Source: Cerioporus squamosus
Lineage: Eukaryota > Basidiomycota > Agaricomycetes > Polyporales > Polyporaceae
Reading direction: 5' to 3'
NCBI GenBank assembly: GCA_022592435.1
Contig: JABYQS010000170.1
Coordinates: forward strand, 1 to 64,000
Length of the DNA: 64,000 bases
This document shows positions 10,986 through 64,000 of this stretch, one piece after another. How positions within the stretch are numbered: the stretch's first letter is position 1; each line of letters opens with the position of its first letter. The position numbers and the translations under genes were made by a program. The notes below the pieces were generated by a model. The model ran no database searches. It was not told the DNA's origin and saw nothing but the letters and a program-made list of their open reading frames with translations.

Positions 10986-11029
10986 TCCTTCCTGCGCATC
11001 TACTGAGTCTCGTCCTATTTCCGGTCGGG

Positions 11030-13092
11030 CTAAGTCCTCATTGCGCGCCTGACTCCACCACGCCCGTCCAGCCACGAGGCTACCAAACGCCCGGCGCCAG
11101 TCAGGAGAACAAAATATATTCGCGTGCCTACGTACAGCGACGCCCCGGAGCCTGGCGGACGTGCGTCAGCTTTCACATCACAGAGCTGGTTTGCGGAGGG
11201 GACGGGATGCACGCAAATCTGCTGCAGACGCGCCTGCTGCGTCTCCGAGCCGAGCATGTTCCCGTCCTTGGACATGGTGAGGCGTGCGTGGAGGCGGGGG
11301 AAGAGCGGGAGGATGATGCGGTCGCGGAAGGAGACGAGCGCGAGGGCGCGCACGTCGATCTGGCCTGACGCAGCCGTCGGTACCCCCGCACTCTTGCCGT
11401 TCTGCGTGGGCGATGTCGGCCGGTGCGCCTTTGGTATGCGGTAAAGCGAGGAGAGGAGCGGATCGGTTTGCAGTGGGAGCAGCGCCTAGGCGGAAGAGAC
11501 GGGTAAGGCCGACGAATGAGGGGAAGAGCAGAAGGGTGTGGGGATGTGGGGATGACAGGACGGGAAGAATAGACGGTAGACTCACCCCTTCGAGGTACGG
11601 GAGGACCTGTGTCCAGAAGAAGGTCCAGAGCTCGACGATGTGGACGATGAGCTGCTCGTCGTCGACGCCGGCGAGCCTGGAGTTGAGGGTGACCATGCCG
11701 GTCGCGATGAGCTCGAATGCGTCGTTCTCAAGCGTGGCGACGGCCTTGCCCGGGGCGGCGGAGACGACGGTCTGGATGTGGCGGCGGACGAGCTGGTTGA
11801 GGTCCTCGATCGGGCAGCGGAGCGGCTCGTGGTTGAAGAGCGGGAGGATGAGGACGTGGAGGGACGCCCAGGGGCTCTCGCCCGAGAGGCTCGCGCTGAT
11901 GCTCGGGGCGGCGGAGGGGGCCATGGTCAGTGCGCTCGTCGCCTGGGGCGCGGAGACGGAGGGGGCGAGGGAGGGGAGGTGGGCGAGGTTGCCCAGGCGG
12001 TGCATCTCGCGCGAGACGAGCTTGGAGTCATATGTGCGCGTGGACGAGGCCTGTTTGCGTTCGCGATGCGGAGTCAGCGGGGAGATAGAAGCGCGAAGGG
12101 TGAGAAGATCGCGCGGCGAGGACGTGCATGCGAGATGCGGGGTGCGATGCGCAGATCAGGGAGCGGTGGCAGTTGCGTGACGGTGCGCGGTCGTAGCAGG
12201 TAGATGGATCGCCGGGGTACAGCGAGAGTTCAGCAAAGAAGACGAGTAAACAGAGGGCATCTGAACAGCCCCGGGAACCATCGTGAGGTGCGTGACATGA
12301 GTCGCGAACGGGCGAAGACAGAAGACGTACACCAAGGCTGAAGGAAGGGTTCGAAGGCATGGACACAGGCCGGAGACACTGCATACCCAAATGCTCGTAC
12401 GTGCTTGCGAGGACATCCTCCCGAGCACGTTCATACCTCGAGCCACGGCAGCCAGAATGCTACGCTCGGACCTGCACCACTCGCGGTGTCTCCCACTACG
12501 CCCACGCACCAAATCCCGGAGCAGACGCGAAGTATGACGTACGTACCTTCGAAGGCGACGTGTGGCCCTTGTTGGGCTGGTTCTGGGGAGCGGCCATCGG
12601 GACGGGCGAGTGTGCACCTTCACGGGGATCGCGGGGCAAGGCAGAGTCAGCGCGAGAGTGGGAGCGGGCAGGGAGGAGACTGGACGGGATCGGGGTGGTG
12701 CCGGAGCGCTGGGATGACGAAGCGACCGAGGCGGGCGATGCTCCAAGGTGAGACGAGTGCAGGTGCGAGGCCAGGTGGGACGAGGACGCGACGAGATGGC
12801 CAGCGGACGGCAGCTGGAGGATGTCCCCGAGGAATCCGAGCCGCTTGGGGCCGTGGTCCGCCGTCAGATGCGCCCCGCTGGAGCTCGTGCCCGCCTGTGT
12901 ACTCGCATTCTGTCCTGGCGTCGGGGACGGGGAGCGCATGGGCGAGGGCGGGACAGAGTGGTCGTGGGCGTGGACGAGCGTGGGCGGGGCGGGGACACGT
13001 GGGGTCGCGTCGCCGTGTGAGGACGACCGCCGCCGCTCGGGACCCCGGAAGTCGCTCGAGATGCGTCGGACGTGCGCTGACCGTCCCGCCAT
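11030..13092 (-). CDS. HbrB/Bit61-family TORC2 subunit, copy 2
   Basis: Exons 13092-12547, 12050-11586 and 11485-11030 (488 aa). Protein blocks are as in copy 1, with the N-terminus in the frame shared by copies 3 and 4. Intron 1 is about 496 bp against 126 bp in copy 1, because of about 0.36 kb of extra unrelated sequence, but both splice sites are kept. The C-terminus reads on past QQARLQQI for about 50 residues into sequence that is non-coding in the other copies, giving the longest tail. The HbrB family assignment rests on the conserved exon 2/3 core. Whether this copy is functional cannot be told from sequence alone. Confidence 0.7.
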
Positions 13093-38869: not shown

Positions 38870-40008
38870 TTGCGCACTGCTTCGTCGCTATCTCTGCACA
38901 CAACAGCAGGGGCCGCTTCTCCAGGTACCAAGCGCGCAGCTTATTCCCCTCGAGCTCTGAAGCTCTCTGCCGCCATCCGCACCCTGGACCCGACGAAGCT
39001 TACCGCAGAAGACTGCATCACATGCATGTCGTCAAGGCCATCCCCGCGTCTTGAGTTGAGAGTATCCGAGTATCATGACGACGCCCGAGGGTCTCCCTCC
39101 TCCTCTCGCGCCACCACGAGGACCGTGACCCACACAGCCTGTCAGTACCCAAGACCCGCGGATTCCTCTACTACCACCAGCCTCCCCGGGCGCCTCCCCT
39201 CGCAGGCCAGCTTCGCTTCCATGTTACAGGCTCAGACGACCCTGCCTCCTTTTCTTCCGGGACCGACTTGACGACCGAACGCGGCGTTCCGTGGTACATC
39301 CCTCTCCCCGTTACTGCTTCCGCTGGCTACCGGATGCACACGCCTATCCGACGTCTGCTCACGGACGTCGACGGGCTCGTCCCTCAGCAAGTGATGGACC
39401 TCGCACGCGCACAAGAACACGTCCACATGTGCATCAGTGGCGACGTCAAAGGCACCTGATATCTTTACGCATTCGGCCAGCCGTTTGACCTCACCCTGGA
39501 CAGCGCGAGCTCTGCGTTCGCGCTTGTCGGGAGAGATCGCATCGCGCGCATGATCCTCCCGTACGTGATCTGCTTCTACACCGGAACCGCCAGCCGTGGT
39601 CGACTCTTCCATCTCCCTTTCTCAGGTCAGCCGGCAGTGTCCGCACTGCGTCTCGCATGCGTTTGAAGTGGCCGTCGAGAGAGCGCTGACCTCCACACTG
39701 TTGCAACAGGCACGGCTCTATGCTGTTTCGAGCCCTCTGCACTTCCGGAGCACGCCGGGAAGCGTGTCGCGGTCGTGCGCGTGCTGCGCTCCCTGGAGTC
39801 GGACCCCGTCCGACCCAACCCGTTGTATGCCGGACTGCCCATCCCGCCTGAGCTCTACCCCCAAGACGGACAGCTGTTGATGGCGCTGCGGTTTCGGAAG
39901 CCGCGGGTGTGGGCGGGCCATGTAGACAAGGAGACATCAGTGAGGACGACCGGTGTTGGACCGCTGCGCATACTCTTCGACAACGCAATTGAATACGGCT
40001 ATCCTTGA
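38870..40008 (+). pseudogene. Family-X orphan gene, copy 1 (broken)
   Basis: Same protein family as the intact gene at 46,999-48,150. Seen in order: RTLDPTKLTAEDCITC; a frameshift near 39,070-39,150; GFLYYHQPPRAPPLAGQLRF; GVPWYIPLPV; QQVMDLA; then an in-frame TGA at 39,457-39,459 just before YLYAFGQPFDLTLD. The intron from 39,626 to about 39,711 is kept, and the last exon (GTALCCFEPSALPEH to ILFDNAIEYGYP) is open to the stop at 40,006-40,008. One frameshift plus one nonsense codon mark it as a recent pseudogene. Confidence 0.75.
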
Positions 40009-43934: not shown

Positions 43935-45000
43935 TCATGACAAGTACGGAGATCCATACTCGACAGTGTTTTCAAACAACACGGCGAGCGGCCTGGCGCT
44001 GCTCACTCCCCTGGACGACTTCATGTCCACGTCGCACGTCCACGCCCGCGGCCCCCGAGCACGAAGCTTCATAAGCAGCTGGCCTTCTTGAGGGCAAAGC
44101 GCAAGTGGATCTCTGGTCCCGTATGGGACGGGTTGGGTCGGAAGGGATCGACGAAGCGCAGGACTCGTACGACTGCGACACTGCTTTTGAGAATGCTGCG
44201 GGAGCATGGACGGCTCGAAGCAACACAGTGCCGTGCTTGTCAGTGAATGCGACGAGTCAGCGGCGTGCAGGGTGGCCCGAAAAGCGGAACATAGCGCAGC
44301 GTGGAGACTCACCTAAGAAGGGGAGCTGTCGCTGACCACTTGTATTACTGTTGCCCGCCATCATCCACAGTCTAGTCCGTTCTATATGATCCTTGCCCAC
44401 GAATGCGAAACAATGACTGGTGCTGTCCAGCGTTAAGGCGAACGGTTGGCCAAACGCATGCAGGACTTGCGTGCCCCCTTTGTGGCCCAGCTTGAACGCG
44501 TGAGAGTGGTGCTGCGCGAGGTCCATGACTTGCTCGGGGACAGTCGCATCCACAGCCGTGAGGAGATGTCGAAGGGGCGCGTACATCTGGGTGCTGGCAA
44601 TGGTCGGAAGGGGTACATACCAGGGACTCCGCGAATCGTCATGAAGTCTGCCCCAGAGGAAAAGCTGGCGGGATCACTTGAGGCGGTGACACGGAAACGG
44701 AGTTCTCCGCAAGGGAGGGGCGCGAGGAGGTTGGTGGTAGTGAAGGAACCCGCCAAGCTCGCAGTCAGGTGGGACCTCTGGGTGGAGGGCGTACAGTGCG
44801 CGAACGCTCGGATCCCAATCGGAACGTCTGTATAGCTGCAGGGCAATACCCAGGGCAGTCATTGTGAAGTACTCCCCCGACGTGAGTTTTTTCGGGTCCA
44901 AGGTGTGGAGAGTGCGAACAGCGCTGAATTGCCTTTGCAAAATGCTAGGGCGAGCCGACAGATCCCTCGAAAGCAACACTCCGCGTAGTCCTGAATGGCA
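43935..45000 (-). pseudogene. Family-X orphan gene, copy 2 (broken)
   Basis: Blocks in order: FSAVRTLHTLDPKKL, GGFLHYHQPPRAPPL, a one-base shift, GELRFRVTASSDPASF, a second one-base shift inside the GVPW block, HLLTAVDATVPEQVMDLA, LHAFGQPFALTLD, FAFVGKDHI. The intron acceptor is offset by one base compared with the intact copy. The last exon has a further frameshift, then ILFENTVEYGSP-like residues. The exact 5' end is unclear, as an open frame runs on to 45,453. Confidence 0.8.
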
Positions 45001-46998: not shown

Positions 46999-48150
46999 TC
47001 AACCGAAGTGTGGTGATCCGTACTCACTCGCGTTCTCGAACAGTATCGCGAGTGGCCCAGCACTGTTCCTCCTCGTCCGCGCTTTCCTGTCCACGTCACG
47101 TTCCCACACCCGCGGCTCCCGGCGATCATGTAGTCTCATCAGCAACTCCCCTTCTCGAGGGTAGAGTGCGGATGACTCGGAGATCTGTGGTCCGATATAC
47201 TCTGGGTTGGGTTGGATGGGATCCCATTCGAGGGAACGCAAGACTCGTATAAGTACGACGCGCTTCCCTGAGTGCTGGGGGAGCGTAGACGGTTCAAAAC
47301 AGCATAGCGCCGTGCCTGTGGAAGTCGCAGCTTAGCTCCCGTTCTGGCCTGTCGTGCCGAGCGAAATGCGGAATGCAGACTGACCTGAGAAGGGGTAACA
47401 AAGTGCGCGGGCTTCAGAGTCGGTGAAGCGGAACTGCGCCAATCTGTGCAGAATCGTGTCTGCGATACGTTCCTTGCCAACAAACGTGAATGAGGCTCCG
47501 CCACGATCCAGTGTCAGGTCGAACGGTTGGCCGAACGAATGCACGTATCGCGTGCCCGAGACATTGCCGGACCTGGAGTGGCGATGCCCCCGTGCGAGAT
47601 CCATAACTCGCTGAGAGACCGTCCGATCGACGGCGGTGAGTAGATATCGTATTTGCGCGAATGTCTGGCCTCTGGCAATGGTGGGAAGGGCAATGTACCA
47701 GGGAGTCCCGCGTCTGGTCGTTACGTCGACGCCGGCAGAAAAGGTGGCAGGATCGGCGGAGGCCGTGAGGCGGAAGCGGAGCTGTCCTGCAAGGGGAGGA
47801 GCACGAGGAATTTGATGGTAGTACAGGAAGCCGCCGCTCGGTTCACCCTGCACAGACAAACCGCGTGTATCCTGTTGGTGGGGCAAGTGGGAGATGAAGA
47901 CTCTAGGGCGTCCGTCAACATCGTGGCCATATACGTTCAAGAAACCATGAGTTCCTCTTGATGAGCAGGTGATATGATCTGTCGGTGACAGTTTTGTTGG
48001 GTCCAATGTGTCGATCACGGCTGTGGTTCTATGCTTCCGGGGAGCTGCGCTCGATGTGCTTGATGAAGACGCAAGAGTGCCACGTCGTGGTAGGGTACGC
48101 CACAAGGGACACACTGGTCCTAGGGCAGCCAACATGGCTGACACTGACAT
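46999..48150 (-). CDS. Family-X orphan protein (intact copy 3)
   Basis: Exons 48150-47385 and 47315-46999 (360 aa), with a 69-bp in-frame intron (gtcagt...cacag). I know this only as a type of orphan protein seen in mushroom genomes; no function is assigned. Visible blocks: VIDTLDPTKLSPTDHITC (~45-62), GGFLYYHQIPRAPPL, FRLTASADPATFSAG, GTPWYIALP, LLTAVDRTVSQRVMDLA, HSFGQPFDLTLD, SFTFVGKERI. The second exon begins GTALCCFEPSTLPQHS and ends with LYPREGELLM, VWERDVDRKA and ILFENASEYG. There are no membrane segments or Cys clusters; the N-terminus (about 45 aa) is Ser/Arg-rich. It is the only unbroken copy of four in 12 kb. Confidence 0.75.
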
Positions 48151-49209: not shown

Positions 49210-50240
49210 TCACGGGTAGTACGACGATGCGTACTCCACGGCGTTATCGAACAGGATGCCGAGGGGGGCGAAGAGGTTCTTCGTGCGCTTGCGCAACTTG
49301 CCGTCGACGTCGCGAAACCACGGCCGCAGCCAGCCGTTGGAGAGTTCCATCAAAAGCTCGCCTTCGCGGGGAACCAAGCCGGGCGGGTACTCTTGTCCAC
49401 CGTACGACGGGTGTGGCAGGATCGGGTCCGCGTCGAGGGAACGGAAAACTCGTATGACAGCGATGTGCGCGTTCGGGTGCTGTGGGTGCACATATGGCTC
49501 GAAGCAGCAGATAACGGTGCCTGCGAAACGAACGGCGGGGTGTTAGCTGGAGCTGATCAGGAGATGCTGGTCGACGAAGACAGACTGGTGAACGGGCTCC
49601 ATCGCTGGATATCGATCCGCCGCTCTTGGGTACTTGTGCACTTGCTACCTGTACTGAAGGTGGAGGGTCGTGCGCGCGACGCGATCCTTGCCCACGAACG
49701 TGATGCGGCATTTGCTCCATTCGAGGGACAGCCCGAACGCTGACCGACGAGTGCAGACATCCATCGCCATTCTTCCTCATGATGTAGTCGTGGCTCCGTG
49801 CGAAGTCCATCACGCTCTGAGACGCCGTGCCGTCCACAGTGGTAAGGATGTGTTGGAGCATCGCTTGCGAGTCGTTCCTTGCGAGGGCCAGAAGAGAAAG
49901 GCGCCATGGGAGACCGCTTGCGCCAGTTGTGACGTCGATCCCGGACTAAAAACTAGAGGGATCGTCCGAGTCGGTGACGCGGAAGCGGATTTCGCCAGCT
50001 AGCGGCGGTGCACGAGGTGGCTGGTGAGTAGTAGAGGAATCCGCCGACGGCAGTGTGTGACTGATGTTGCAGAGAGCCGGAGCTCGGGAGCGCAAGGATT
50101 ACACTGGACCCGCACATGTGAAAGCTGTGTATGTAGAGCGTTGGACGTCGGAGCCAGTGAATTGTGAGATAATCCGCCCGCGTGAGTTTTGCTGGGTCCA
50201 AGGTGCGGAGGTATCTAGTAGTAGGGACAGGCCTTTGTGT
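49210..50240 (-). pseudogene. Family-X orphan gene, copy 4 (broken and interrupted)
   Basis: Blocks in order: TRYLRTLDPAKLTRADYLTI, GGFLYY, then several frame changes, ILTTVDGTASQSVMDFA, and an open last exon (AVIRVFRSLDADPILPHPSY, LVPREGELLMELSNG, LGILFDNAVEYAS). The N-terminus is lost exactly where the inverted repeat of the KDZ element begins (about 50,241). On the far side of that element (minus strand, just right of 63,469) an ATG-led frame of about 25 codons is open up to the boundary, but I cannot show that it is the missing first exon. Confidence 0.75.
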
Positions 50241-50313
50241 CATATGGATCCATCCAACAACTGTGGTAACAGAGGATTGGGGATCCATCCCCTACTGTAG
50301 TCACAGTCCACTG
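50241..50313 (+). repeat. Outer inverted repeat, left
   Basis: catatggatccatcc at the edge, then ctgtggtaacag, ggggatccatcccc and ctgtagtcacagtccac. It matches the reverse complement of 63,409-63,469 with scattered mismatches. It too contains small palindromes around GGATCC and CTGTnnnnACAG. Confidence 0.75.
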
Positions 50314-50992
50314 TGCAGATGTATCCAGCGTTTGAGGGAGCCCGTACCGGCGGTTAGCCACTGCAATGCTAGGATCCCGTCCGCAATGGGTTAGCGGGCG
50401 CTACGTTATCCTTCCTCCCTTCTGGCACGCTTGAAACACTGGGCTCACACCCTGCATACCGTCCAAACGCGGAGTGCCAAAGCTGCAGCATCACATCCTC
50501 GGGTTTTTCCTTGGGACCTCCAGCGGCGGAGTGCAAATGTGGTCTACCGCGTCTCTGCAGGTTCACGGGTCACCATCCCAATCCGTCGTCTACCGTGGCT
50601 CCGGCGGCTCACCGGTGACCGTCCCATAGCTAGCGGGCAGCACGGCGGTACTGTGCACAGACGCGAACAACTTGAAGGTAGGTCGCACGATTCTCTACCG
50701 TTCAAACTTTCTTCTATCAGACATAGAAGTAAGTACTACCTTCTGTAACACTGATCTCTAGGTACTTAACACTTATGGCCGCGATGGCCTGGACCTTCCA
50801 GCAGCAATATTCACAATACGGTTGCCATTCTCCTGAACAGTGGCCGCGGTACCAGACAGTACGTCCAGTTGCAAGACCATGCCGGCCCATGGGTCCGACA
50901 AGTTCAGTCCTCTGGCCAAGTTCCTTGCTCAAGCAGTAGCACAAGATCGTAACGGCCTTAGCCCTCACTTGCAAGGGCATGGACCTTGTCTA
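50314..50992. other. Left inner flank of the transposon
   Basis: No gene seen; lies between the outer repeat and the palindrome array. Confidence 0.5.
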
Positions 50993-51776
50993 ACTGTAGA
51001 GATGGATCCAGCGAGAGCATCGCTAGATCCATGTCTACAGTCTTGAGGCATTCCGAACACGTCGAGCTCTGCGCGTGTCTGTAGAGATGGATCCAACGAG
51101 AGCATCGCTGGATCCATGTCTACAGTCTTGACGCCTTCTGAAGACATCGAGCTCGGCGCGTGTCTGTAGAGATGGATCCGACGCATCTCTACAGTCCTGA
51201 AGCCTTCCAGCCATGTCGGGGTCTGCGCAACGCCCGTACTGTAGAGATGGATCCAGCGAGAGCATCGTTGGATCCATCTCCACAGTCCCGAGGGCTTCCG
51301 CGCACGTCGGGCTCTGCGCGTGCCGGTAGGACGCTCGTACTGTAGACATGGATCTAACGATGCTCTCGTCGGATCCATCTCTACAGTCCTGAAGCCTTCC
51401 GGCCATGTCGGGCTCTGCGCAACAACACCCGATGCGCAGACGTTCCCTGGGCCACCGCCTGCTTCGAGTTCTCTGCCATGACCGCCATGAAGTTGTACCT
51501 ACACAGTGTACCTGCGTACTAGTAGCGTGCCACACAGCAAGCTCGCGACGGCAACTTGACTGTAAGTGCCGTAAGTGTAGATTTGTGGCTGTCCCGGTAG
51601 TCTACAGTCTCGTGCAACTCCATAGTACGCCCCGCCCTAGCACGATGCGCTCACTTGTAAACATGGATCCATGTTTACAGTGAGCGCGCTTCCGCACACT
51701 GTCTGTTCCGGCACGACACTCGTATTGTAGAGATGGATCCTCCAGCGATGCTCTCGCCGGATACATCTCTACAGTC
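50993..51776. repeat. Left palindrome array
   Basis: Four ~49-bp palindromes of the form ctgtagagatggatcc(a/g)(a/g)cg-loop-cg..ggatccat.tctacag at 50,993, 51,076, 51,239 and 51,339, a short one at 51,160, then outliers at 51,648-51,688 and 51,725-51,776. The spacers, read in reverse complement (tacgggcgt..., cgcagagcccgac, ggaaggcttcaggac), match those of the right array, so the two arrays are inverted copies. Confidence 0.92.
51648..51688. repeat. Near-perfect 41-bp palindrome
   Basis: gcgctcacttgtaaacatgg followed by its mirror complement (atccatgtttacagtgagcgc), with only a small bulge at the T/A next to the tg core; no loop. It is a loop-free variant of the array palindrome and is centred on GGATCC. 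Confidence 0.85.
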
Positions 51777-52054
51777 CCGCGGAACTCCATATCAACTAAG
51801 CGCTGCATGTTCGGCGATCTGTGGGTATGTCCCCTCATCCCAGAGTTGCTAGCGGCTGCACAGCGGTAGACTGAAGATCAACGGACATTATCAATGGTAT
51901 ATAAACATGTACGCGCTCTGAAGCACAGTGTATATACAGGCAGAACACTATGTACAAGTAGGATACATGGCAAGATAACGAGTGTGTCAACGTATTCACG
52001 ACAGGCGACAAGAAGGGACAGCAGAGCGCACAGGAAGAGACAACTATGAACATA
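51777..52054. other. Spacer between left array and first gene
   Basis: 3' flank of the basic-protein gene; includes an AT-rich stretch near 51,890-51,960. Nothing else seen. Confidence 0.5.
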
Positions 52055-54216
52055 CTACCGCGGCTTACGCGTCGTGCGGGACTTGGTTGGAGGTTGAGCC
52101 ACCTTCTTGGTTGGGGCCGCCTTCTTCGCCGGGGCTGCCTTCTTGGCGGGGGCCGTCTTCTTGGCCGAGGCCACCTTCTTGGCTGCAGCCGGCTTCTTGG
52201 CCAACGTCGCGGCTTGCTTACTAGCCCTGGTACGCGCAGTTCCTCGGGCAGGCTGAGGCCCAGGGCCATCCACCTGGCTAGGGACTGCAGGGGACGCCGC
52301 CTGAGTACTTGACCCCACCACAGCGACTGGCGGAGTTCTGCCGGCTGGGTGACCCCGGGGAGACCGACGCTTCCGGGAGCAATCATCAGTCTCGCTGGGG
52401 ACTGACGATGACACGGTGTCAGTACTCGACTCCATAGGGGCACCTGGGGACGTCTCGTCCACTGCGCGACCCCGGGGAGACCGACGCTTCTGGGGAGCAC
52501 CTGGGACTGAAGACGAGGTCGGTTCTTCCGGTGTCGGAAGGGTGACAGACTGCAGAGCGCTGTTGACAGCGGGGATTGTCGCCCAAACGGGAGGAGGCGG
52601 GTCGAACTCTTCGAAGGTGTAGGGATCGGCGGTCTCGAACGCCGCCACCATCTGATCCACCGTCTCAAGGTCCATTGACGCGATGCGACCCGCGAGGAAT
52701 GGGTCATACACGTCGAATGGACCCAGGGCTGCACCGGGAGCGGACAGTGCGAATGGGTCAACTAGAGTGGTAGAGTTGATGGGCATCATGAGGGGCTGGA
52801 CAGCTTCCGCAACCGTCGCCGACAGGCCACCCAGAATGTGAGAGTTCGGGGCGACAACGGGAAGCTGACTGGCTTCGGCAGGCTGGGAAACAGATGGGGC
52901 ACTGCGCGCCAGGGATGGATCGGTGAGCGCATCGGACACGAGGCTTGTGTCTGGTGTGGGCAGTGAGCGCGTGTCCTCGTGAGAGGCCTGCCGAGGAGCC
53001 TGCAGACTGCGTTGCTGTTGTACTTCGCGCGCTGTAAGGTAGTGTGAGTGCCAAGCACAGGCCAGTAATCAACGAGACTCACGGAAGACTTGCTTGGCAA
53101 ACCGCCCCATAGGGATTACGCACTGCTCCTCGAAGTCAGGATGCGCTTGTGCAAAGGTGATGCCGTTCTCCTTGTGACCAAAGTGTGCACTAGGAAGGTC
53201 AAATGCATGAGCGATAACCGGTCATATGGCGGACAGTGGTCAGTACTCACGACATGTGGCCGATCTTGCCGTTGGCATCGGGTAGCGGGCCTGCACCGAC
53301 CACGCTGAAGGTCCAGCCACTTGCGGCCGCATAAGGCTTCAAGACACCCTCGAAGACTTCAGGCGCAAGTTCGATAGCACTGCGTAATCGGGGGTTCACG
53401 TCACAGAAGAGGAGCATACATGGCGATGAGACTCACTCTTGGTATTGCTGCGGAGTACGGTTGTCGTTCTCCGGAGTGAGCGCCCGGCCAGTACGTCCGT
53501 TTGCCGCATCCTCCTTTGCCTGCGCTAGCTTCCTCTTGATCTTGCGCTTCACCTCCAGCGAACAGGCCTGGAACGCCTCCCTCGTGCACGCCTTCACGTT
53601 GTTGAGCCTCTCTTTGCGATCTAGCCTGCGTCCCAGCTCTGCCTCCATCGCCTTTGTCTTCTCTCGTACAATCGGCTGGACATCACTCTTGTAGTGGTCG
53701 GCCGAGTAGACCTCTTGCGCCTGTGGCAAACGTCGGGCTTTCTTGGAGACACCAATCGCGGAGAGCAAGCTTGACAGCTTCCGGGTCGAGGCGCGCTTTC
53801 GATCGCGGTTCTTGTGCCACACCACCAATTGCTAGGATAGGACGGACACGTCAACAGCTGACCTGGTGGACAACAGGGAACAGGATGAGGGATGGATTTG
53901 TGCGTACCCCTTTCCTCTTCTTGACCGCTTCTGCTAACACTTCCTTCTCTTCTGGGGATAGACGTGTCTCGTCGCGGTGGCCATAGATCAGCTGGCACTC
54001 GGACCATTCAGCGAACCAGTCGGTGTACATAGACTCGAGGTAAATGTGACGGCGTTTTGCCTTCCTCGCCGCCAGATAGGGGCCTCTCGTTCGCTTCAGC
54101 CATGCCCATTGGGGCGGAGTCGTCCAAGTACGGGTAGCTCCCGGCCAGCTCTCCACCTCAGAGTCGTATTCCGGCTCACTAAGGTCCATGTGCACGTCCT
54201 CAGGTGTGTCGGACAT
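52055..54216 (-). CDS. Transposon-encoded basic protein with histone-H1-like tail
   Basis: Five exons: 54216-53908, 53831-53437, 53379-53251, 53189-53083 and 53031-52055 (638 aa), all junctions in frame, introns 57-76 bp. Residues ~1-105 are acidic, then Trp/Arg-rich (WTTPPQWAWLKRTRG, YTDWFAEWSECQ). A Lys/Arg-rich, probably helical part follows (VQPIVREKTKAMEAELGRRL, RLNNVKACTREAF). Next comes a block ELAPEVFEGVLKPYAAASGW...GKIGHM, with FAQAHPDFEEQ after it. The last ~40 residues are Lys/Ala/Pro repeats (PAKKAAPAKKAAPTKK), like a histone H1 tail. It resembles an agaricomycete orphan family of repeated copies; I assign no biochemical role. DNA or chromatin binding is an inference from composition. 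It is divergently transcribed from the next gene across 336 bp. Confidence 0.8.
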
Positions 54217-54482
54217 GGCGGGAAACGCGCCAACGGCGCGGCAGCAGTACGAGGGGGAAACGGTTTGGGGATATTGGGGGGGCGGGGGAGGGCGGCGGCG
54301 GCAGAGGCATTATTGAAGGAAATATTCACCGAGGTCGTCCGCTTCAACCTGCCACTAGAAATGGTGACATGCTTTCGCTCTGCATGCAGCAACTTAGACG
54401 GGTAAGTGCACGTCTTTCGGTTCCTCCAAGATTGAGCAACTGATGTCCATTCTTGTCAGCCTTCCGACGGCGTCGCTGAAGC

Positions 54483-54488
54483 TATAAA
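54483..54488 (+). promoter_or_regulatory. TATA box of the Cauli_VI-like gene
   Basis: tataaa 70 bp upstream of the ATG at 54,553, within the 336-bp divergent intergenic region. Confidence 0.6.
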
Positions 54489-54552
54489 GACACCCTGCGT
54501 CCCCATTCCTAGCTCTCAAGCACTCAGCTATCTCCCTCTCCCTCGTCTCACT

Positions 54553-55723
54553 ATGCATGTCCGCCATGGCAAGAACGTTGAGTACGCGGCGGCTCCTGTC
54601 GCCGCGCCCTCAACCTTGATGCCGGGAGGCCTCGTAGATGACCAGCCAGGCAAGTGCACACGTCGTCGCCGTGCATGCAAGCACTGATGTCCGTTTACCT
54701 ACAGCCGAAGCTCCCATTGGGCCTACGATCGAATGTTGGCAGTGTCATCGGTTCTCCATCGGAAGTAAGCCCGCCCTCCGATGTCCGATGGCCTTGTTTA
54801 CTCACATATCTACTGTAGTTGGAATGTGCGAGCACCGCGCGGCTGCCCTCGCAGCCAATGATGGGTACAGCGCAGCCGAATCGGATGCCAGCATCGACGA
54901 TAGTGTGAGCTCTGGCAGCTCCCTGGGGGGAATTACAGACCAGCTTCACCATGCCGAGGTCACCGATCGCGCGGACTCACCCCAGTCCGAGCACTCCTCG
55001 GCCCTGTGGGTGGGGGTGTCCCCCGGGTCTTCCTTCCTCGCCGACAATGCTTCACGCATTCGCTCTGTGACGCCGCCCTCTGATCATGAGGAGGAGCCTG
55101 CCGCTAACGCTCAAGCTGTGCCCGCTGTGCAGCTGCAGCCCGCGCCTCAGCTCGCCCAGGCTCCGCCCATCGCGCCTGTCATGCAGCCGGTTGCTCAGCT
55201 CGCCCAGGCTCCGCCCATCGCGCCCGTCGTGCAGCCGGTTGCTCAGCTCGTTCAGGCACCGCCTGTGGCGCCCGTCATTCAGCCTGCTGCCCAGCCCGCT
55301 CAGGTGCCTCCCGTCGCGCCCGTTGTGCCCATCGCGCCTGTTGTGCCCATTGTGGCCCCCGCGCAGCCGCAGCCTGCTGCTCAGGCCGTCATGCAGCCGC
55401 AGGCCGGTGGTCAGACTATGCGAGCACAGGTTGATGCCCGCCTTGCGCTCAACAACATCGTGGCGCATTACGACCCGAACGACCCGACGTTCACGGGGAA
55501 GTGGTATGTCGTCACACGAGGGCGCACTGTTGGCGTCTTTAGGCACCAGTGAGTATCCCATTGGCCTGGGATGTTACAGCAACTGACTCGACAGTGTAGG
55601 GGGCCGGCGAACACCGCCGTGAATGGGTTCCCAGGACAGAACTGGTTCCGTGCCAGGCCGTACGAGGCCGCATGCGAGGCCTTCTATAGCTGCGCCCTTG
55701 TTGACGGTGTCAGTACCCGGTAA
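54553..55723 (+). CDS. Protein with C-terminal Cauli_VI / RNase-H1-N-like domain
   Basis: Four exons: 54553-54649, 54705-54764, 54819-55548 and 55600-55723 (336 aa), all in frame. Intron 1 has either a GC donor (cag|gcaagt) or a GT donor three bases on; both keep the frame. The N-terminal part is short, with IECWQCHRF. The middle is acidic and Ser-rich, then about 100 residues of Pro/Ala/Val/Gln repeats (AQAPPIAPV units). The C-terminus reads KWYVVTRGRTVGVF, then, across the intron, NTAVNGFPGQNWFRARPYEA, the pattern of the small domain shared by RNase H1 N-termini and caulimovirus inclusion protein (RNA:DNA or dsRNA binding). I infer nucleic-acid binding for the transposon; this is not a virus gene. 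Confidence 0.82.
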
Positions 55724-55883
55724 AGGTTGGGTAACGCCGGTGGCAGGGCATGAATAGGTAGCGGGAATGACTTTCTTGGAACGCGCGTACAATTGTAACA
55801 TGTGTGATATCCTCTCCGTGCATAAATACATCCTGACGAGAGCCCGTGCGGGTCTCCGTCAGCTTCCGCCCCTCTCCGACCTT

Positions 55884-56702
55884 ATGGGACGCCGTACCAT
55901 CTACTTCACGTCTGCAGAACGTGATGCAGCGAAGCGTGCACAGCATGCCAAATATGCCAAATCAGATCGGTAAGGTACAATCGCATGACATCATGACGAT
56001 CATACTAAGTTCTACTGCTCAACCAGAGGCAAGGCCACTCGAGCTCGACTTCGTTCCAAAGATTCCAAGTCGCTTGCTGTGTCGAAGTCCATAATAATAC
56101 CACTAGCCGTCCGCAGCCGCGCCACCATCTACTCTGTCCTGTCGTGGTCATTCACCTCAAAGGATGATGCCGACACGGTCACCGATCTTGGCCTCCGCCA
56201 GTCGCCATATGTCTTCCTCATGCCAGATGCCGCCTCCATCGCTGCGGTGTTGGAGGCCGAGATGGATGGCATAGAGCTTACACTGAATAGCATCCACTGC
56301 GCTTGGATCCGGGAGGAGGCTCGTACGCGCTATGAAGCATGGTCGACTGAAGGCTTGGAGGAGAAGGACTTTGCGGACGCGGCCATTGCGGAGCTTGAAG
56401 AACGCATTCGCGCGTGGAACGCGGTCGCAGCTGACGGGGACGGAAATAGTGCGGATGAAGAGTCGTGCTTCTGCAAGGTATACTTGGACTGGGGTGCGAA
56501 GCGTATCATATGGTTGTGGGAAGAACTTGAGGTCAGGCGGAAGGGTCTGGAGGCGTACCTTACTGCACACGGGAACTCCGAACTCCCCGCTCAGAGACTA
56601 TACCGTTCTAATCTGGACTACATAGAGAGCTTACCGGTGTTGGAAGACTCGGACGACGAGACCTATGACCCCGATGATCTTTTCTCAGAGATGTACGAAT
56701 GA
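55884..56702 (+). CDS. Transposon-encoded basic/acidic protein of unknown role
   Basis: Two exons: 55884-55969 and 56027-56702 (253 aa), with a 57-bp intron and a clear tactaag-type branch site. The start MGRRTIYFTSAERDAAKRA is preferred; an upstream in-frame ATG at 55,767 would leave only 43 bp after the preceding gene. The N-terminus is strongly basic (ERDAAKRAQHAKYAKSDRGK, then ATRARLRSKD). This pattern recurs in mobile-element-linked mushroom proteins. The rest is acidic and helical (EAEMDGIELTLNSIHCAWIR, FADAAIAELEERIRAWNAVA) and the end is very acidic (DSDDETYDPDDLFSEMYE). No enzyme motif is seen. Confidence 0.72.
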
Positions 56703-57672
56703 TAGTTACAAACCATGTACGCACTTGAGTATCTCTAACGTACCGTGCTGCTCCCGAGTACTTACCTATGGTTGAACATCTATCTTGGCTCCATTGTTGC
56801 TTCTTATCATCTGTGGGTATCGTGTCATTGTACCTGTACCTTGTCATGCCCGAGATCGCAGTCAGTACGACCTGTAGAGCAGTAGATATGTTTTCGCACC
56901 TTTTGGCCACACTGATATCCAGCCTCTGATTGGCTGAAGGGATGGAGCGCCGGCGTGGCACAGCCGCTCACATATCCTCTGCTGGCTATCCTTTGGGCGC
57001 TCAGAACCTAGTTACTACCAAGTGCGCCTCCGTCCCCGCTTGTTCAGGACACAACCTGCACGCCTCAACGCGCTCTAAGTTCTTCCTGTGCTCCATATCT
57101 ACTACTGTGAAACTATGACGATCAACACGCCCTTGTGCTCTCATTCTGCTTCTCCCTTTCTTGCGGCTATCGCCACGCCATCGACAGCAGCAACAGAGGA
57201 TGGGCCGCATGGACGCAGGCACATAAGGAGGCCGTCTGTGGAGGGTTCTCAACATCTAAGAGGTAAGCCCAGGGCTCTCGTACTCGGTGATCCCGCCGCG
57301 CCCTCCCGGGTCCTGTGTGCTGACTGCACACGCAGTCACCGGGGACCTTAGGAGCTTCTAGCACATCAAGTGCGCTCATCAGATGTGGCACAGGTCATCC
57401 TTCAAGTCCCGCAACCTTCATGTCAGCATACATTTCAAGTTGGGGTGCAGATCCCCGTGTCTCCACTAAGGAATGTCTAGGTACGTGCTGTCCTTCACGT
57501 CGTAGTAGCTCCTCGCCGATGTGCTATCTATACTAGCACGCGGCGGCCGGTTCTCTATTTGTATATCATCCCTGAACAGACAGTGTACCCGTACAAGCTG
57601 TATGCAACCGAATATACGCTCCTTCCAATCTCTGTTGTCGTCTGCAGTGCCCCAGGCCTCCGATGAAGCAAT
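56703..57672. other. Intergenic stretch upstream of the transposase
   Basis: About 970 bp without a supported gene. A short open frame from an ATG at 57,115 ends in a good donor at 57,263 (aagaggtaagc) and could be a leader exon; nothing downstream confirms it. Presumably holds the transposase promoter. Confidence 0.45.
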
Positions 57673-60600
57673 ATGAGCCCCCGCAGCAAGCTCAAGCGGC
57701 TCCTCACCACCCTACCGTTCCTCTTACGCAAGATGGTCAAGCGTAGCTCGAAGAACATCATCGTCCACACCATTGACGACGAGGACGATACCGACGAAGG
57801 CAACGACAACGACAACCGCACAGAGGCGCATCAGCACATCGCGTACGCCTTTGCCGGCGATAAAGTCTCTCAGCAGACATCGTTCGTCCCCCTACCGGCA
57901 TCCCCACGGAGCAAACGCGCTCGGCTATCTCCCTTTCCTTCGGATGCACCCTCTCTCGGCAAGGACACCACGGAAGGTGGTGATCCGGACGAAAACGACT
58001 TGAACTACCTGTGGCACCGGATCGAACAGCTTGGGTTGGAGGACACACCAGCCGCCCGCGCGCGCACAGCCGGCGTATGTGGTCTTGCACTCCAAGCTCA
58101 TCCGTGGACTGACTTCATACGCTCATAGGACCGTCCCCTCCTGACGTGGTTGAGGTACGATGTTCAGAACTACCTCGACGAGCTCATGCGTCAAGAGGGT
58201 CGCGGTGACTTCACTGCTCCCACATGTCCGCGCTGTTCCCAGTCTCTAGCCTCGAGCGAAGCACCTGGCTATCGCTGTGACGACTGCGACGACAGCGCAC
58301 TGTACTGTCAAAATTGCACGAAAGAGCAGCACGTGCGACACCCGCTGCACCGGGTGAAGGTATGGACGCGTTTCTGTACACGCGACGACGTGCGCTCATC
58401 CCTGTCGCCAGTGGTGGACAGGCACCCATTTCGAGCGGGTGACGCTGAAGTCCCTCGGCTTGCGTATCCAGCTCGGCCATCGGCCCGGCGACAAGTGCTA
58501 TAGTCCAGTAGCGGCCTTCGGAGATGCCTTTGTTGTTATGGATCTGCATGGTATTCATGAAGTCGGCCTGGACTTTTGTGCTTGTGCGCTTGCGGCCCCC
58601 TCTACTTCTCAGCTGCTTCGTTACCGCTTGTATCCTGCTACATCCACGGATCCCCGCACTGCTGCGACTTTCCGTCTCCTCGAGACGTTCCACCTCCTCT
58701 CGGCCCAGTCTAAGGTCTCTGCCTTTGAGTTCTATTCGACGCTGGCCCGGCGATCTGACAACACTGGAACACAACCGCCCAAGGTTAGTATCATTGGACG
58801 CGCCCATCACTCACCGCTTGCTGATACGCATGCCGTAGGACCGTTACGTGTCCTTCCTGCATATGATCAGGCAGTGGCGTCACCTGAAAATGCTGAAGCG
58901 CGGAGGCCGAGGCAATGTGCCGCAAGGGGCAACAGCTGTCCCGCAAGGAAGCTGCGCGGTCGAGTGCCCGGCATGTCCCCATCCCGGGAAGAATCTTCCT
59001 GACGAGTGGGAGAGCGCGCCCAAGAACAAGTGAGTGCACACGCATCTTGTCGCATATGTTACTAACCAGTCATAGGAGTTGGTTATACAGGCTCTACCTC
59101 GCAATAGATGGCAACTTCCGCCTGAAGCGGAAAAACATATCCGCCTCGAACCTGGACCCTGCGCTTAACGCTGGTTGCGCGTACTTCGTCGAGGACAGCG
59201 CCTACGAAGCTCACCTCAAGGAGTTCGACTCTGGCAATGCCAAGGAGACGCTTCCCGGAGAATGTAACACGCATGACGCGGTTAAGCTTGCGAACATCAA
59301 GGGCGCAGCCGGATTGGCAGCTACTGGTGTCGTCACGGTCGACTGCAGTCGGCATGACATGAAGTGTCCGTGCTCCATAGGAGACTTGCAGAAGGGCGAA
59401 AGGTTCGTCTCCTGGTTCCCACAATTGCTCATGTTGCTGATGCCCTCGCACCGCAGACAGGTGAATGTGGACTACCTCCTAAACTCGAGCTTGTTGCACA
59501 ATGCGCCCACCCAGTGCAGCATCTCCTATGATATATCGTGTAGCTACAGTGTTCGGTTTCCTATACGATGGGTGAAGTATGGCTACGACACTAACATAGG
59601 TCGTCAGATTATGTGGTCCATTCCCATGTTTCACTTGAATGCGCACCGAGAGCGCTGTCGCTCTGTCTTCTCCCCCTACCTACTGCTCTACTCCGGCCGG
59701 CTTAATGGGGAAGGCGTCGAGCGTCGCTGGGCAATGGCCAACGGATATGCTCCTGCCACCAAGGAGATGGGCCCTGGCTCACGTCATGACATGTTAGACG
59801 ACGTTTTTGGCGACCAGAACTGGGCGAAAGTGACCAAGCTCCGTATGTTATTGTTCGTCTGCATTTGCTGGCGCGTCACATTGAAATTCTCTCACAGCTG
59901 TTAGTTTGTTGTCACGCATCAAGGTCGCGGTTGTTGAACGTGCCAAGCACGTCAACGCGTACAATCAATTTACGTCGTCTCTACCAGCCAACTCCGTCAG
60001 CCAATGGAAGGAGATGGTGCATCTGTGGGATGAGTCGCCCTCGACGGCCCCCAATCCCTATGAGTACCGCCGCACCCGTAAGCACACCACTCTGCTATGT
60101 TCTCAAAGTTCTGACGCCGCTCCTGCAGACATCACTCAGGGCGCGCTTCGTGTGGAACTCGCGGAGGAGGATGCTGATGACATCCGTGCAGGTCGGGCCT
60201 CGGCCGTGCACGAGTACTACTCAGCGAGCACAATCGTTGTGGTTGGCATGGAGATCGAAGATCAGCAGTGAGTAGTACATAGTGACACAGCTCCCAAGCA
60301 CTGCCGCAAACCTGACGCTCTGATGTATCCAGGCGGAAGCTTCTCACCGACAGCTCAGCCCTCGGCTCCTATCCCACCGACATGCAACGCGCGAAGCTCA
60401 TCGAGCGTCAGAATGCACTGCAGCGCCGGATCGATGGGTGGCGCAAGATCCAGAACTTGTTCATGCCCTCCGTTGTCACTCTCATTACTCAAGCTGGCTC
60501 TGGCGATGACTCTCCACTTCCCCAGAGGCTACCGCTCTTCCTCCCTTCAGCAGCGTGTATTGAAGTCGTTGTATCCCCCTGCCTCCTCAATCACGAATGG

Positions 60601-61526
60601 CGCATGCGGCAGGCACAGGCCTATGACGCCCTCACCGACCTACGCGGCCACCTCGAAGTCCGAGCGTACATCTATCAGTACAAGGATCAGCATGTCCGTG
60701 GTCAGCGGGAGATCACCCGATCGCGCGACATTGTTAACGGCATCGAGGCCAAGATCAAACTGGATGCTGCTCGCTACCGTGCTGCCTATATCGCGCTGAC
60801 GACACTCTCCGGCGCCCTCAGCAAGGTGAATTGGCGCGGTCCCCTGCAGCCGCTCCTCGATAGCGACATTCGGCACGTGGCGGCTGGGGATGGCACTGGC
60901 TCCGAGAGTCGTAGGGAGCTCTCCTGGATTTGGAAAGCGGGCAGTGTCACGAGCGCGGATGGAGTCTTGCTCGAGGGTCAGACTGAGAACCTTCAAGAAG
61001 GTGAGATGTTCTGTTGATTCGACTTATCTGGCTTTGCTGACTTGTCACAGGCCTCCGTGTCGAGTGGTGCAAGGCGCGTGCTCGCGCACTACGATGGATC
61101 GAAGAGGTCCAGATTGTGGAGGAGGAGATGCGTCGGACAAAGCAGTACCTCAAGTGGCACTCACAGAGATGGGAAGCGTACGTCCCGCTCACGCCTCAGC
61201 AACGGGCCGATCTCCACGAAGGCGCAACTGCCTACGCCTATCGTCAAGCGTCAATCCGGCAGAAGATGGCCGCGTACTGCGAGCATGCCTGGAGGTCCGT
61301 TAGCACATGGGTTTGTATAGGCCAGACCGCATGCGACCTCGATCAGTCGGCTTCTGGGGATACCGACGCCGCAGAGCCATCGGCGGCCACAAACATCGAC
61401 AACGATGAGGACTTGCCGTCGTTGCATACCATGTTAGATTCGACAGACTCGGTCCCATCTCTCATTGCCTCGGAGATGCAGGACGTTGGCGAGCTTGAGC
61501 TGGCAATGGAGGACTTTTTTGATTAA
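57673..61526 (+). CDS. KDZ transposase with CxC2 cysteine cluster
   Basis: Ten exons: 57673-58074, 58129-58359, 58412-58783, 58839-59029, 59076-59402, 59457-59842, 59898-60077, 60129-60267, 60333-61000, 61051-61526 (1,123 aa). All nine introns (46-65 bp) are GT-AG and frame-true. Blocks: acidic N-terminus with KRARLSPFPS; YLDELMRQEGRGDF then the CxC2 zinc cluster (CPRC...YRCDDCD...YCQNC...HVRHPLHRVKWW, ~165-213); GIHEVGLDFCAC (~258-269); ECPACPHPGKNLPD; YLAIDGNFRLKRK (~410); GECNTHDAV and DLQKGERQVNVDYLL (~500); SYDISCSYS; GEGVERRWAMANGYAPATKEMGPGSRHD (~593-618). The last three are KDZ hallmarks; the Asp in GLDFC, the Asp in IDGNF and the Glu in VERRW are my candidate catalytic acids. The C-terminus is coiled and acidic. 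It looks intact. Family: Kyakuja-Dileera-Zisupton. Confidence 0.95.
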
Positions 61527-61783
61527 ATCCTGCGTGTTGTACTTATATCGTCATGTCGCTAAGCTACTCAGTAGTACGTTCGCTCTCGAGTTCATTGTAT
61601 ATTGATGTCGTGTAACAGGATGTACTGCCTCACGGTTATGGTATCTATTCCCTCCCACCCAGAGCTATTCCTGCCTCCCTCTTAGCGATCCAGATCGCGT
61701 CTCAGCTGACGCAGGTGAGACTTATAGCATCTCTATCGGAGCAGGGATGAGCCAAAAGGTCAATGAGCGAGTCATAGTGAGCA
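61527..61783. other. 3' flank of the transposase
   Basis: No gene; presumably transcription end region. Confidence 0.5.
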
Positions 61784-62739
61784 ACTGTGGAGATGGATCC
61801 AACGATGCTCTCGTTGGGTCCATGTCTACAGTACGGGCGTGGCACCGGGACGCGCAGAGCCCGACATGCGCGGAAGCCCTCGAGACTGTAGAGATGGATC
61901 CAGCGATGCTCTCGCTGGATCCATGTCTACAGTACGAGTGTGGCACCAGAACGCGCAGAGCCCGACGTGCCCGGAAGGCTTCAGAGCTGTAGAGATGGAT
62001 CCGACGATGCTCTTGTTGGATCCATCTCTACAGTATGGGCGTGGCACCGGGACACGCAGAGCCTAACATGCCCGGAAGGCTTCAGAACTGTAGAGATGGA
62101 TCCAACGAGAGCATCGTCGGATCCATCTCTACAGTATGGGCATGGCACCGGGACGCGCAGAGTCCGACATGCCCGGAAGGCTTCAGAACTGTAGAGATGG
62201 ATCCGACGAGAGCATCGTCGGATCCATCTCTACAGTACGGGCGTGGCACCGGGACGCGCAGAGCCCGACATGCGTGGAAGCCCTCGAGACTGTAGAGATG
62301 GATCCAGCAAGAGCATCGCTGGATCCATGTCTACAGTACGGGTGTGGCACCAGAACGTGCAGAGCATTGGATCCATGTCTACAGTACGGTCGTGGCACCG
62401 GCAGGCACAGAGCCCGAAGTGTGTGGAAGCCCTCAAGACTGTAGACATGGATCCAACGATGCTCTCGCTGGATCCATCTCTACAGTACGGGCGTGGCACT
62501 GGCACGCGCAGAGCCCGACATGCCCGGAAGGCTTCAGAACTGTAGAGATGGATCCAACGATGCTCTTGTTGGATCCATGTCTACAGTACGGTCGTGGCAC
62601 CGGCATGCACAGAGCCTGAAGTGTGCGGGTACGGGTGTGGCACCGGAATGCGCAGAGCCAGACGTGTGCGGGGGCCGAGAGGCCTCGAGACTGTAGAGAT
62701 GGATCCAACAATGCTCTCGTTGGATCCATCTCTACAGTA
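61784..62739. repeat. Right palindrome array (~100-bp period)
   Basis: Nine full palindromes of about 49 bp starting near 61,784, 61,885, 61,986, 62,087, 62,188, 62,289, 62,438, 62,539 and 62,691, plus a half copy at about 62,367. Arms read ctgtaga(g/c)atggatcc and the mirror ggatccat(g/c)tctacag. Spacers of about 52 bp (tacgggcgtggcaccgggac, then gcgcagagcccgacatg...ggaag) are also repeated. Every arm has a BamHI-type ggatcc. A last half-site (ccattggatccatctgcaca) is at 62,785. Confidence 0.95.
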
Positions 62740-63408
62740 CGAATGCAGTGTCGAGCTGTAGCCGGCGAGGAAAGCGGAACCACGAACGGGTGGCCATTGG
62801 ATCCATCTGCACAGTGGGCCCATGAAGCCAGAACGGGCACAGTGTTGCCCGACCTGCGACCAGATAGGACCGGAGAGATCCTAATGCAGGCACAGTGGTT
62901 GTATGCGCAGCGGCGCGCCTCATGCCTAGTCTCGCGAGGTACTCACCCATTAGCACATTCACTGCTTCACAGGTCCAGCTATACACTGGGAGTAGTCGCA
63001 CCGCGTATTGTTGAGCACCTGTAGCAAATCGAGGTACCGTGCGTGCAGCGGCAACAAGGAGAGCCCCAGTTGTGGAGCCTGTGGTGCAGCGGCGCATGGG
63101 GGAGACGCGGATAGGAGGGTGGTGGGACGGCAGGACACGTGGGTCAATTGCTGGGCATGCCAGCACTGGCTGAACGCGGGCAACGTAGCGGGGTCCGAAT
63201 GTATTGGTTTACCGCAGGAAATCAATGAATGCGCATGGATGTCGAGCGGAGATTGGAAGCTGATTCAGATAGGCCTGGTTATGGACAATCGTCAGGCAGG
63301 GAGCCATGTGTGAAACATATCAGCAACATACCTAGGAAGGCAGCAGGCGCCGGAATGGCAGGGCGAGGCAGGTACTGGCTGGCAGGGGATATTATTTTGG
63401 TGGACTGT
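62740..63408. other. Right inner flank of the transposon
   Basis: No gene seen; lies between the array and the outer repeat. Confidence 0.5.
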
Positions 63409-63469
63409 AACTACAGTATGGGATGGATCCCAGGTCATCTGTAACTACAGTAGTGGATGTATCCCTATG
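63409..63469 (-). repeat. Outer inverted repeat, right
   Basis: Reverse complement reads catagggatacatcc, ctgtagttacag, gggatccatccc and ctgtagttacagtccac, pairing with the left copy. Confidence 0.75.
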
Positions 63470-64000
63470 CCAGCATGAGGTGGTAGGGAGATGATTTGCC
63501 GGGGCTTGGGCGTGGAAGTGCGGCGACTTGCTACCCTCCCGCGAGCTGGTGAACATGGTGGTCTTTACGTCTCCTGTGTCTGTGGATGCTTTTCGCAGGG
63601 TTGGAAGGTCGCGAAGTGGAGGAGCACGGCCGCTTCGGTGAGCACGCTGGCATTGTGGGTACTTATTGCCACCGGGAGGCGATGCCTCGGAGACCCATCT
63701 GAGGCTGTCGGGATGTGGTTATCTAGTCCCAGCGGGGTGGTTAGTATAGGAGGCACAAGGCAGATAATCAGGACATACAAGTATCGTACTTACAGAACTG
63801 TTGACATTAATGGTGGTTTCAGTGAGGTCACCGCGACTCATCGTCTTTCCGCCCGCATGAAACGTACTCGCCTACCTCCGGTATACACCCCAGAAGAATC
63901 AGCCCGATGTATCTTATCTTGACCTGACAGAATACAGAACATTATGCGCAGGGTCAGTACTGCTAGTGCTGCGGACGCGTCAGCCATAATGAGACGCGTC
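63470..64000. other. Right flank of the transposon
   Basis: No gene recognised. On the minus strand an ATG at about 63,554 opens a frame of about 25 codons that reaches the transposon edge. A plus ORF (63,491-63,922) has no known motif. Confidence 0.45.

Follow-up and report, generated by a model that had tools for sequence, protein, structure and literature searches.

What are the two clusters of palindromes that face each other across a KDZ transposon in the mushroom Cerioporus squamosus, and what might they do for the element? Both lie in the 64,000-nt stretch analysed here (the window), which belongs to contig C80 of a 54-Mb genome whose other contigs are named likewise (C149, C377, C65, C123 and so on). 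We find that the clusters are mirror-image, subterminal arrays inside an autonomous-looking transposon of Kyakuja type, and the explanation that we consider probable is that they are two-fold-symmetric binding sites for a protein encoded by the element itself. This explanation starts from features that are observed: the ends of the element, its target duplications, the geometry of the arrays, their restriction to KDZ elements, the boxes that they have in common with the termini, and the joint change of arrays and termini between two families.

A complete KDZ transposon with palindrome arrays inside both ends

The transposon occupies positions 50228-63482 (13,255 bp) and has the ends 5'-CA..TG-3'. 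Its exact limits follow from the alignment of the element and its flanks with a second copy in C149, and comparison of the same flanks reveals a 7-bp target site duplication, GTAGGGA, at 50221..50227 and again at 63483..63489 (both on the + strand). In the part between the arrays, 9,837 of 9,916 aligned bases are the same in both copies, and the alignment has 20 gaps. The left terminus, CAGGCCTTTGTG (50228..50239, +), is identical over its 12 bp at the left ends in C149, C65 and C123; alone this 12-mer is not specific, as it is found exactly at 11 places in the genome against 9 for a reversed-pattern control. The right terminus, TGCCAGCATGAGGTG (63468..63482, +), is found exactly at 7 places, which are five array-bearing elements (those in C80, C149, C377, C65 and C123), C712, and a C712-type end in C109. 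Allowing one mismatch adds 6 more places, against 7 in the control.

The transposase gene (57673..61526, +), delimited from reading frames and domain matches, has several exons with approximate splice sites. It carries both features of the KDZ superfamily, namely a KDZ transposase domain (PF18758, E 3.5e-48; 59086..59820, +) and, upstream of it, a CxC2 cysteine cluster (PF18803, E 1.5e-43; 58445..58768, +, within a Pfam match at 58367-58801). Mushrooms, among them Fomitopsis, Polyporus, Grifola and Armillaria, supply the named relatives of the KDZ frame.

The left array (50994..51774, +), delimited by listing palindromes and by a shuffle test, comprises 7 palindromic units, five long and two short (51164-51194 and 51655-51680). 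The right array (61785..62737, +) comprises 9 palindromic units of 47 bp with a period of 101 bp, two wider gaps and a half-unit at 62369. A typical unit measures 47 bp (49 bp with the flanking A and T) and consists of the 16-bp arms CTGTAGAGATGGATCC and GGATCCATCTCTACAG around a 15-bp centre. Unpaired half-units with at most four mismatches are located at 62369 and 62799, the latter isolated outside the right array (62799..62813, on the - strand), and weaker ones at 50311 and 56934. Each array holds 8 strong palindromes, whereas 200 dinucleotide shuffles yielded on average 0.04 for the left array and 0.025 for the right, and two control stretches yielded none, so that a chance origin is excluded; the presence of palindrome arrays at both places, claimed in an earlier note on this DNA, was thus confirmed.

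The spacers reveal the orientation of the arrays. All 30 left-right pairs formed by 5 left and 6 right spacers of the C80 element align better after one side is reverse complemented, with a mean identity of 62% against 49% (the comparison excludes the 268-bp gap on the left and the composite spacers of 102 and 104 bp on the right), just as the earlier note had it when it stated that the spacers match only after such a reversal. C65 (8 of 8 pairs) and C123 (18 of 18) show the same preference, and the one pair compared in C377 is 79% identical when inverted and 41% otherwise. The arrays had further been placed at both transposon ends: they are indeed mirror-image and subterminal, but not terminal, beginning about 750 bp inside 50228 and 63482. 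Measured from the left and right ends, they start at 766 and 745 bp in C80, 907 and 717 bp in C65, and 907 and 655 bp in C123.

The number of units, left plus right, is 7 + 9 in C80, 8 + 11 in C149, 2 + 3 in C377, 3 + 10 in C65 and 5 + 11 in C123. Array length differs by whole units, C149 exceeding C80 by one on the left and by two on the right. Within one array the unit centres occur in both orientations (CGATGCTCTCG and CGAGAGCATCG) and the spacers run in one direction, in C80 and C149 alike, as if units had been inverted by recombination or by template switching between the arms; we have no detailed explanation for this pattern.

The arrays are restricted to KDZ elements and look like an accessory of one subclade

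To appreciate how closely the arrays are tied to KDZ elements, we note that the 16-bp arm matches the genome exactly at 44 places, and at 69 when up to one mismatch is allowed, and that all of these fall in three elements, those of C80, C149 and C377, whose arrays enclose a KDZ gene in every case. This confinement rules out an ordinary scattered satellite, in agreement with the earlier note. With two mismatches allowed, 113 scattered matches are obtained, against 24 for the reversed-pattern control; matches at this level outside KDZ elements (among the 100 of 113 that were listed for the C80 arm) were treated as background, save those in C65 and C123, which led us to a second family. The inverted arrays of these two contigs use a different arm, CTGTAGACGATGTATCC, with GGATACATC in place of GGATCCATC. 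Searched with up to one mismatch, this arm has 34 matches, none of them outside C65 and C123; with up to two it has 69, against 17 in the control.

The KDZ frame of C377 is 85% and 60% identical to that of C80 over two stretches. In C65 and C123 identity is 53% and 57% over the first stretch and 80% and 79% over the second; C712 (about 50-57%) and C42 (49%) are more distant, and a KDZ fragment in C418 reaches 74% over 77 residues. The related element of C65 and C123 has the ends CAGGCC..GAGGTG and a 7-bp duplication whose copies agree at 6 of the 7 positions in either contig. Its flanks are common to both contigs, so the two represent one insertion; the target is presumably a copia-type reverse transcriptase, judged by eye from a motif. 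For C377, C712 and C109 a single flank is visible for assessing a target duplication, and the C377 sequence stops short of the extreme left end. Relative to C80, the C377 element has about 1.6 kb extra between its right array (11505-11844) and its right end (14853).

A KDZ model gives 92 matches in the genome, which we grouped by eye into about 56 loci. Nine of these were searched for arrays in their flanks, five of them on both sides: five loci, representing four insertions, bear arrays, three bear none, and C860, for which 1.8 kb of one flank was covered, carries a different palindrome. The three loci without an array are the more distant elements of C385, C42 and C712, in which the right 3 kb, the side searched, is free of one; in C385 the same 3 kb also lacks the end motif. 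The 1.5-kb flanks of thirty KDZ search loci were scanned for the end motif only. A check of whether array pairs always bracket a KDZ gene, as suggested in the earlier note, thus ended with arrays at five of nine loci, and we reject the idea that all KDZ elements carry them. As all three of the more distant elements showed no array in the right 3 kb, the arrays look like an accessory of one KDZ subclade.

A looser palindrome pattern, GATGNATCC..GGATNCATC, retrieves 40 palindromes from the genome and none with the reversed control. The five KDZ elements with arrays account for 27 of them; the other 13, all of the GATGCATCC type, are spread over eight further contigs. These 13 were not counted as copies of the array, since eleven are part of another repeat and two are in C490, where a 1.3-kb stretch 13 kb from the KDZ match was covered. 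The KDZ model has no match in four of these eight contigs, C8, C112, C347 and C809, and C77 has its KDZ match at a distance of about 54 kb. Relaxing the arm to CTGTAG..CTACAG gave fewer hits than the control (153 against 218 per strand), and this pattern was not used for counting.

The other repeat is itself rich in palindromes (GATGCATCC and GGAGACGACG..CGTCGTCTCC). Near-identical copies are found in C112 (938199-938889), C77 (68070-68760), C347, C809 and C8; those in C112 and C77 lie about 7.1 kb from the contig end, so the repeat is perhaps subtelomeric. In C154 and C860, copies with 81-82% identity are found at about 6 kb from a KDZ gene. The array-less elements have short, non-palindromic tandem repeats of their own, GC-rich in C712 (165095-165330, about 0.8-1.0 kb from the right end) and GAGCATCTCCCGC-like in C42 (87335-87481, about 2.2 kb from the right end).

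Arrays and element ends are built from the same boxes

Self-BLAST and alignment of the ends show that the element also has inverted boxes close to its tips. The left terminal boxes (50238..50311, +) contain the GGATCCATCC box twice, with an ACTGT(A/G)G..ACAG box behind each copy, and form an inverted copy, 82% identical, of the right terminal boxes (63400..63472, on the - strand). The same arrangement, GGATNCATCC-type boxes alternating with ACTGTAGTTACAGT-type boxes, occurs at both tips of the elements of C80, C149, C65 and C123 and at the right tip in C377. The array arm is made of CTGTAG, which is half of one terminal box, joined to GATGNATCC, which is the whole of the other. The array unit therefore appears as a rearranged version of the module by which the ends would be recognised.

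Arrays and ends have also changed together between the two families. The C80 element contains 24 copies of GGATCCATC and 4 of GGATACATC, the C65 stretches examined contain none and 22, and a further 60.8 kb of contig C80 outside the element contains 1 and none. Three of the four terminal boxes in C65 and C123 have changed in the way the arrays did, both left boxes and one of the two right boxes reading GGATACATCC. Among the elements with no array in the right 3 kb, the C712 end is TGCCAGCATGAGGTG and the C42 end differs from it by 3 mismatches; the boxes preceding these ends are of the CTCTA..TAGAG type or close to it, which is a symmetric change of CTGTA..TACAG.

These findings bear on an alternative in which the arrays are passive satellites without a function, which expanded by unequal recombination within the element and reached its opposite end through recombination as well. 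Such a history would account for the different unit numbers in the near-identical C80 (7 + 9) and C149 (8 + 11) copies, for the spacers inside the right array, which are 86% alike as after recent duplication, and for the three more distant KDZ elements with no array in their right 3 kb. It sits poorly with the fixed arms and drifting spacers of C80 and C377, in which the commonest arm is identical at 16 of 16 positions and the right spacers are 53-62% identical, compared with 52% for shuffled ones. Nor would it predict that the arrays begin at nearly equal distances from both ends in C80 and C149, that they are mirrored in these copies and, with other spacers, in C377, C65 and C123, that in two families the arms agree in sequence with most of the terminal boxes, or that the arm at 0-1 mismatch has not spread outside KDZ elements. 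We consider passive satellites an improbable explanation.

Protein half-sites or hairpins

The earlier note had offered two uses for the units, as multivalent protein-binding sites or as hairpin or cruciform sites. In the second case the units would act as DNA hairpins or cruciforms, or as RNA hairpins, and the folded form would be recognised or processed. Three 47-bp units that we folded reach -17.3 to -25 kcal/mol, far better than shuffles (z -8.4 to -11.4), but good single-strand folding is to be expected of any palindrome. Centres in both orientations under spacers of one direction are also what flips through hairpins, or through recombination between inverted repeats, would leave behind.

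A more telling sign of folding would be compensation between the two arms of a unit, and this is not what the arms display. Among 20 distinct 47-mers from the 34 units of C80, C149 and C377, 299 of 320 arm positions pair, against a shuffle mean of 301.3, and 5000 of 5000 shuffles were as good. In C65 and C123, a scripted test on 22 distinct arm pairs from 29 units gave 328 of 374 against 325.2, with 1132 of 5000 shuffles as good. At arm position 8, a G-G or C-C mismatch occurs in 5 of the 8 distinct arm pairs of C80 and C149 (from 31 units, the two short forms per copy being dropped). Some pairing beyond expectation is seen at the four innermost stem positions of the 20 47-mers (62 of 80 against a mean of 55.0; 126 of 5000 shuffles as good), and all 20 stem positions taken together give 361 of 400 against 356.4 (723 of 5000 shuffles as good). 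A hairpin constraint on the arms thus finds no support in either family, and no known structured RNA was found in the window (0 Rfam matches at the gathering threshold).

Because the 16-17-bp arms lack compensation across units, protein half-sites fit better than hairpins, and the comparison of arms favours a reading in which each unit would comprise two such half-sites. Hairpins are unneeded to explain the arms and, as a mode of action, we regard them as quite unlikely; multivalent binding, of the two uses first offered, is the best reading of these putative sites.

How the arrays might work

We propose that the arrays are subterminal repeat regions, that is, tandem sets of putative sites on which a protein encoded by the element would be loaded. 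That a protein binds, which protein this is, and that it acts in synapsis are steps that we infer. Many bound copies on each side could raise the local protein concentration, and arrays so occupied might bring the two element ends together and allow the ends of one element to recognise each other.

Two candidates for the binding protein are encoded between the arrays. The first is the KDZ transposase, whose CxC2 cysteine cluster could serve as a zinc-dependent DNA-binding part. The second, by analogy with TnpA of CACTA elements, is a basic accessory protein from a divergently transcribed gene (52055..54216, on the - strand) that was recognised by its conserved core, probably has several exons, and appears to end in a lysine/alanine-rich tail; we take the frame of this tail to be probably part of the same gene. 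No Pfam family matches the accessory gene above cut-off. Its core is matched in C377 at 56-80%, and relatives are also found near other KDZ genes with and without arrays; the tail, compared in C377 only, gives a weak match (38%, E 7e-6). Presence or absence does not single out the accessory protein as the array-specific binder, and we rejected that line of argument, as its relatives accompany array-less elements too.

Several observations weigh against this explanation. The accessory protein has relatives near all three array-less elements (C42, C712 and C385), so it is not array-specific and its presence is not decisive. C712 and C42 share the end motif and showed no array in the right 3 kb, which means that KDZ mobility does not in general depend on arrays. 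The joint change of arrays and ends is incomplete, because the outer right box of C80 and C149 is GGATACATCC and not GGATCCATCC, and that of C65 and C123 is an exact match to neither motif. The C149 copy (51-13505) has no clear 7-bp target duplication recognisable in its flanks, and the near-identity of the arrays could in part come from homogenisation by recombination and not from selection.

A mainly regulatory role, with the arrays as operators of transcription or as sites that attract or repel silencing, would be compatible with binding by an element-encoded protein. In maize, the TnpA sites of Spm also act in the regulation of silencing. The arrays of the C80 element are placed between each end and the outermost reading frames, as a regulatory site might be, and the subterminal repeats of CACTA elements are described as mediating suppression as well (PMC2613891). 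An operator role alone predicts neither mirror-image arrays at both ends nor boxes common to arrays and termini, and we give regulation as the main role even less weight than hairpins or passive satellites.

Further conserved reading frames without an assigned function occupy 54638..56702 (+) and have no Pfam match above cut-off. The reading frames that we scanned contain no TET/JBP domain.

Relation to known transposons

Kyakuja elements, described as two families in Laccaria bicolor, have CA..TG termini, a 7-bp target duplication and no inverted repeat at the tips (Kojima 2025, PMC12730594), and the duplication measures 8 bp in Zisupton and Dileera (PMC12730594). The C80 element resembles Kyakuja in its KDZ transposase, its CA..TG termini without inverted repeat at the tips (CAGGCCTTTGTG..TGCCAGCATGAGGTG) and its 7-bp duplication, which is exact in C80, agrees at 6 of 7 bases in C65 and C123, and was not found in C149. 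By its ends, duplication and domains it appears to fit the Kyakuja group; CxC2 is not claimed as specific to that group. It differs in having inverted boxes from about 16 bp inside each end and arrays about 750 bp inside, and the sections and passages of PMC12730594 consulted neither describe subterminal arrays nor contain the word "subterminal".

The nearest counterpart of the arrays is found in another superfamily. The soybean CACTA element Tgmt* has subterminal 17-bp two-part motifs that form palindromes, 2 on the left and 12 on the right (PMC2613891). Like the arrays described here, these are subterminal palindromes, unequal in number at the two ends, whose motif diverges between families of one species, and CACTA elements encode a second DNA-binding protein, of which the accessory protein of the C80 element is a candidate counterpart only (PMC2613891). 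The C80 element thus has, by analogy, a CACTA-like subterminal repeat region, in which repeated motifs, direct and inverted, make up palindromes close to either end. It is not itself a CACTA/En-Spm element, as its ends and duplication differ and its transposase is KDZ and not of the tnp2 type. CACTA elements belong to another transposase superfamily and to hosts of another kingdom and have matching terminal inverted repeats, and Tgmt* has a 3-bp duplication (PMC2613891). In Tgmt* the repeats are confined to the 159 and 732 bp next to the terminal repeats, whereas the C80 arrays begin 0.75 kb inside, and mirrored spacers are not mentioned in the section consulted (PMC2613891). This comparison suggests separate origins for the long subterminal palindrome arrays of KDZ elements and those of CACTA elements. 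Carried further, the analogy would have one KDZ subclade independently evolve a CACTA-like two-protein system, in which the basic protein, not the transposase, sits on mirror-image palindrome arrays of rearranged terminal boxes, and array and binder coevolve between families of one genome; we offer this as a possibility that is rather doubtful.

Galileo has binding sites for the THAP domain of its transposase inside mirrored terminal tandem repeats (PMC3688188). It resembles the C80 element, as do Foldback-like elements generally, in its mirror-image tandem repeats at both ends and in their several binding sites, which in the C80 element are putative. The Galileo repeats lie within long terminal inverted repeats, the transposase is a THAP protein of the P superfamily, and the word palindrome does not occur in the paper (PMC3688188). 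In Foldback-like elements the inverted repeats with tandem subrepeats reach the tips, whereas in the C80 element the tips differ and the arrays are about 750 bp inside. In piggyBac and piggyBat, dimers of a cysteine-rich zinc domain bind palindromic boxes near the tips, with more than one site per end (PMC11707139). Palindromic boxes near the tips and a cysteine-rich transposase domain are thus common to these and the C80 element; the piggyBac sites are few, 14-19 bp long and not in long arrays, and the transposase is unrelated (PMC11707139). The likeness of CxC2 to that zinc domain is one of description.

A literature search, at the level of titles and abstract openings, found no subterminal palindrome arrays described for KDZ elements. 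The remark in the earlier note that no such description was known therefore holds for KDZ, but nearly the same layout has been published for soybean CACTA (PMC2613891). KDZ transposons are numerous in mushrooms, and we found no description of how their transposase recognises the ends. From the shared boxes, the joint change between families and the array-less relatives one can now draw up a concrete recognition code that can be tested, GGATNCATC plus CTGTA..TACAG, and name a few candidates for the binding protein.

Other features of the window

The remainder of the window holds several features of its own. Dispersed, diverged repeats that are 65-73% identical are located at 39158-39998, 43942-44761, 47006-47840 and 49926-50046; a frame at 47332-48150 in this repeat family has no Pfam match. 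A gene with a HET domain (heterokaryon incompatibility; PF06985, E 2.2e-15) is encoded on the - strand at 35520-36452. Positions 1-31700 are taken up by a unit of about 8.3-10.3 kb in about four tandem copies, 84-95% identical. This unit contains an HbrB-like gene (PF08539, which we take to be a TORC2-related family; E 2.5e-31 for the copy at 2909-3736), with open frames of the same start at 2909, 11178 and 29761.

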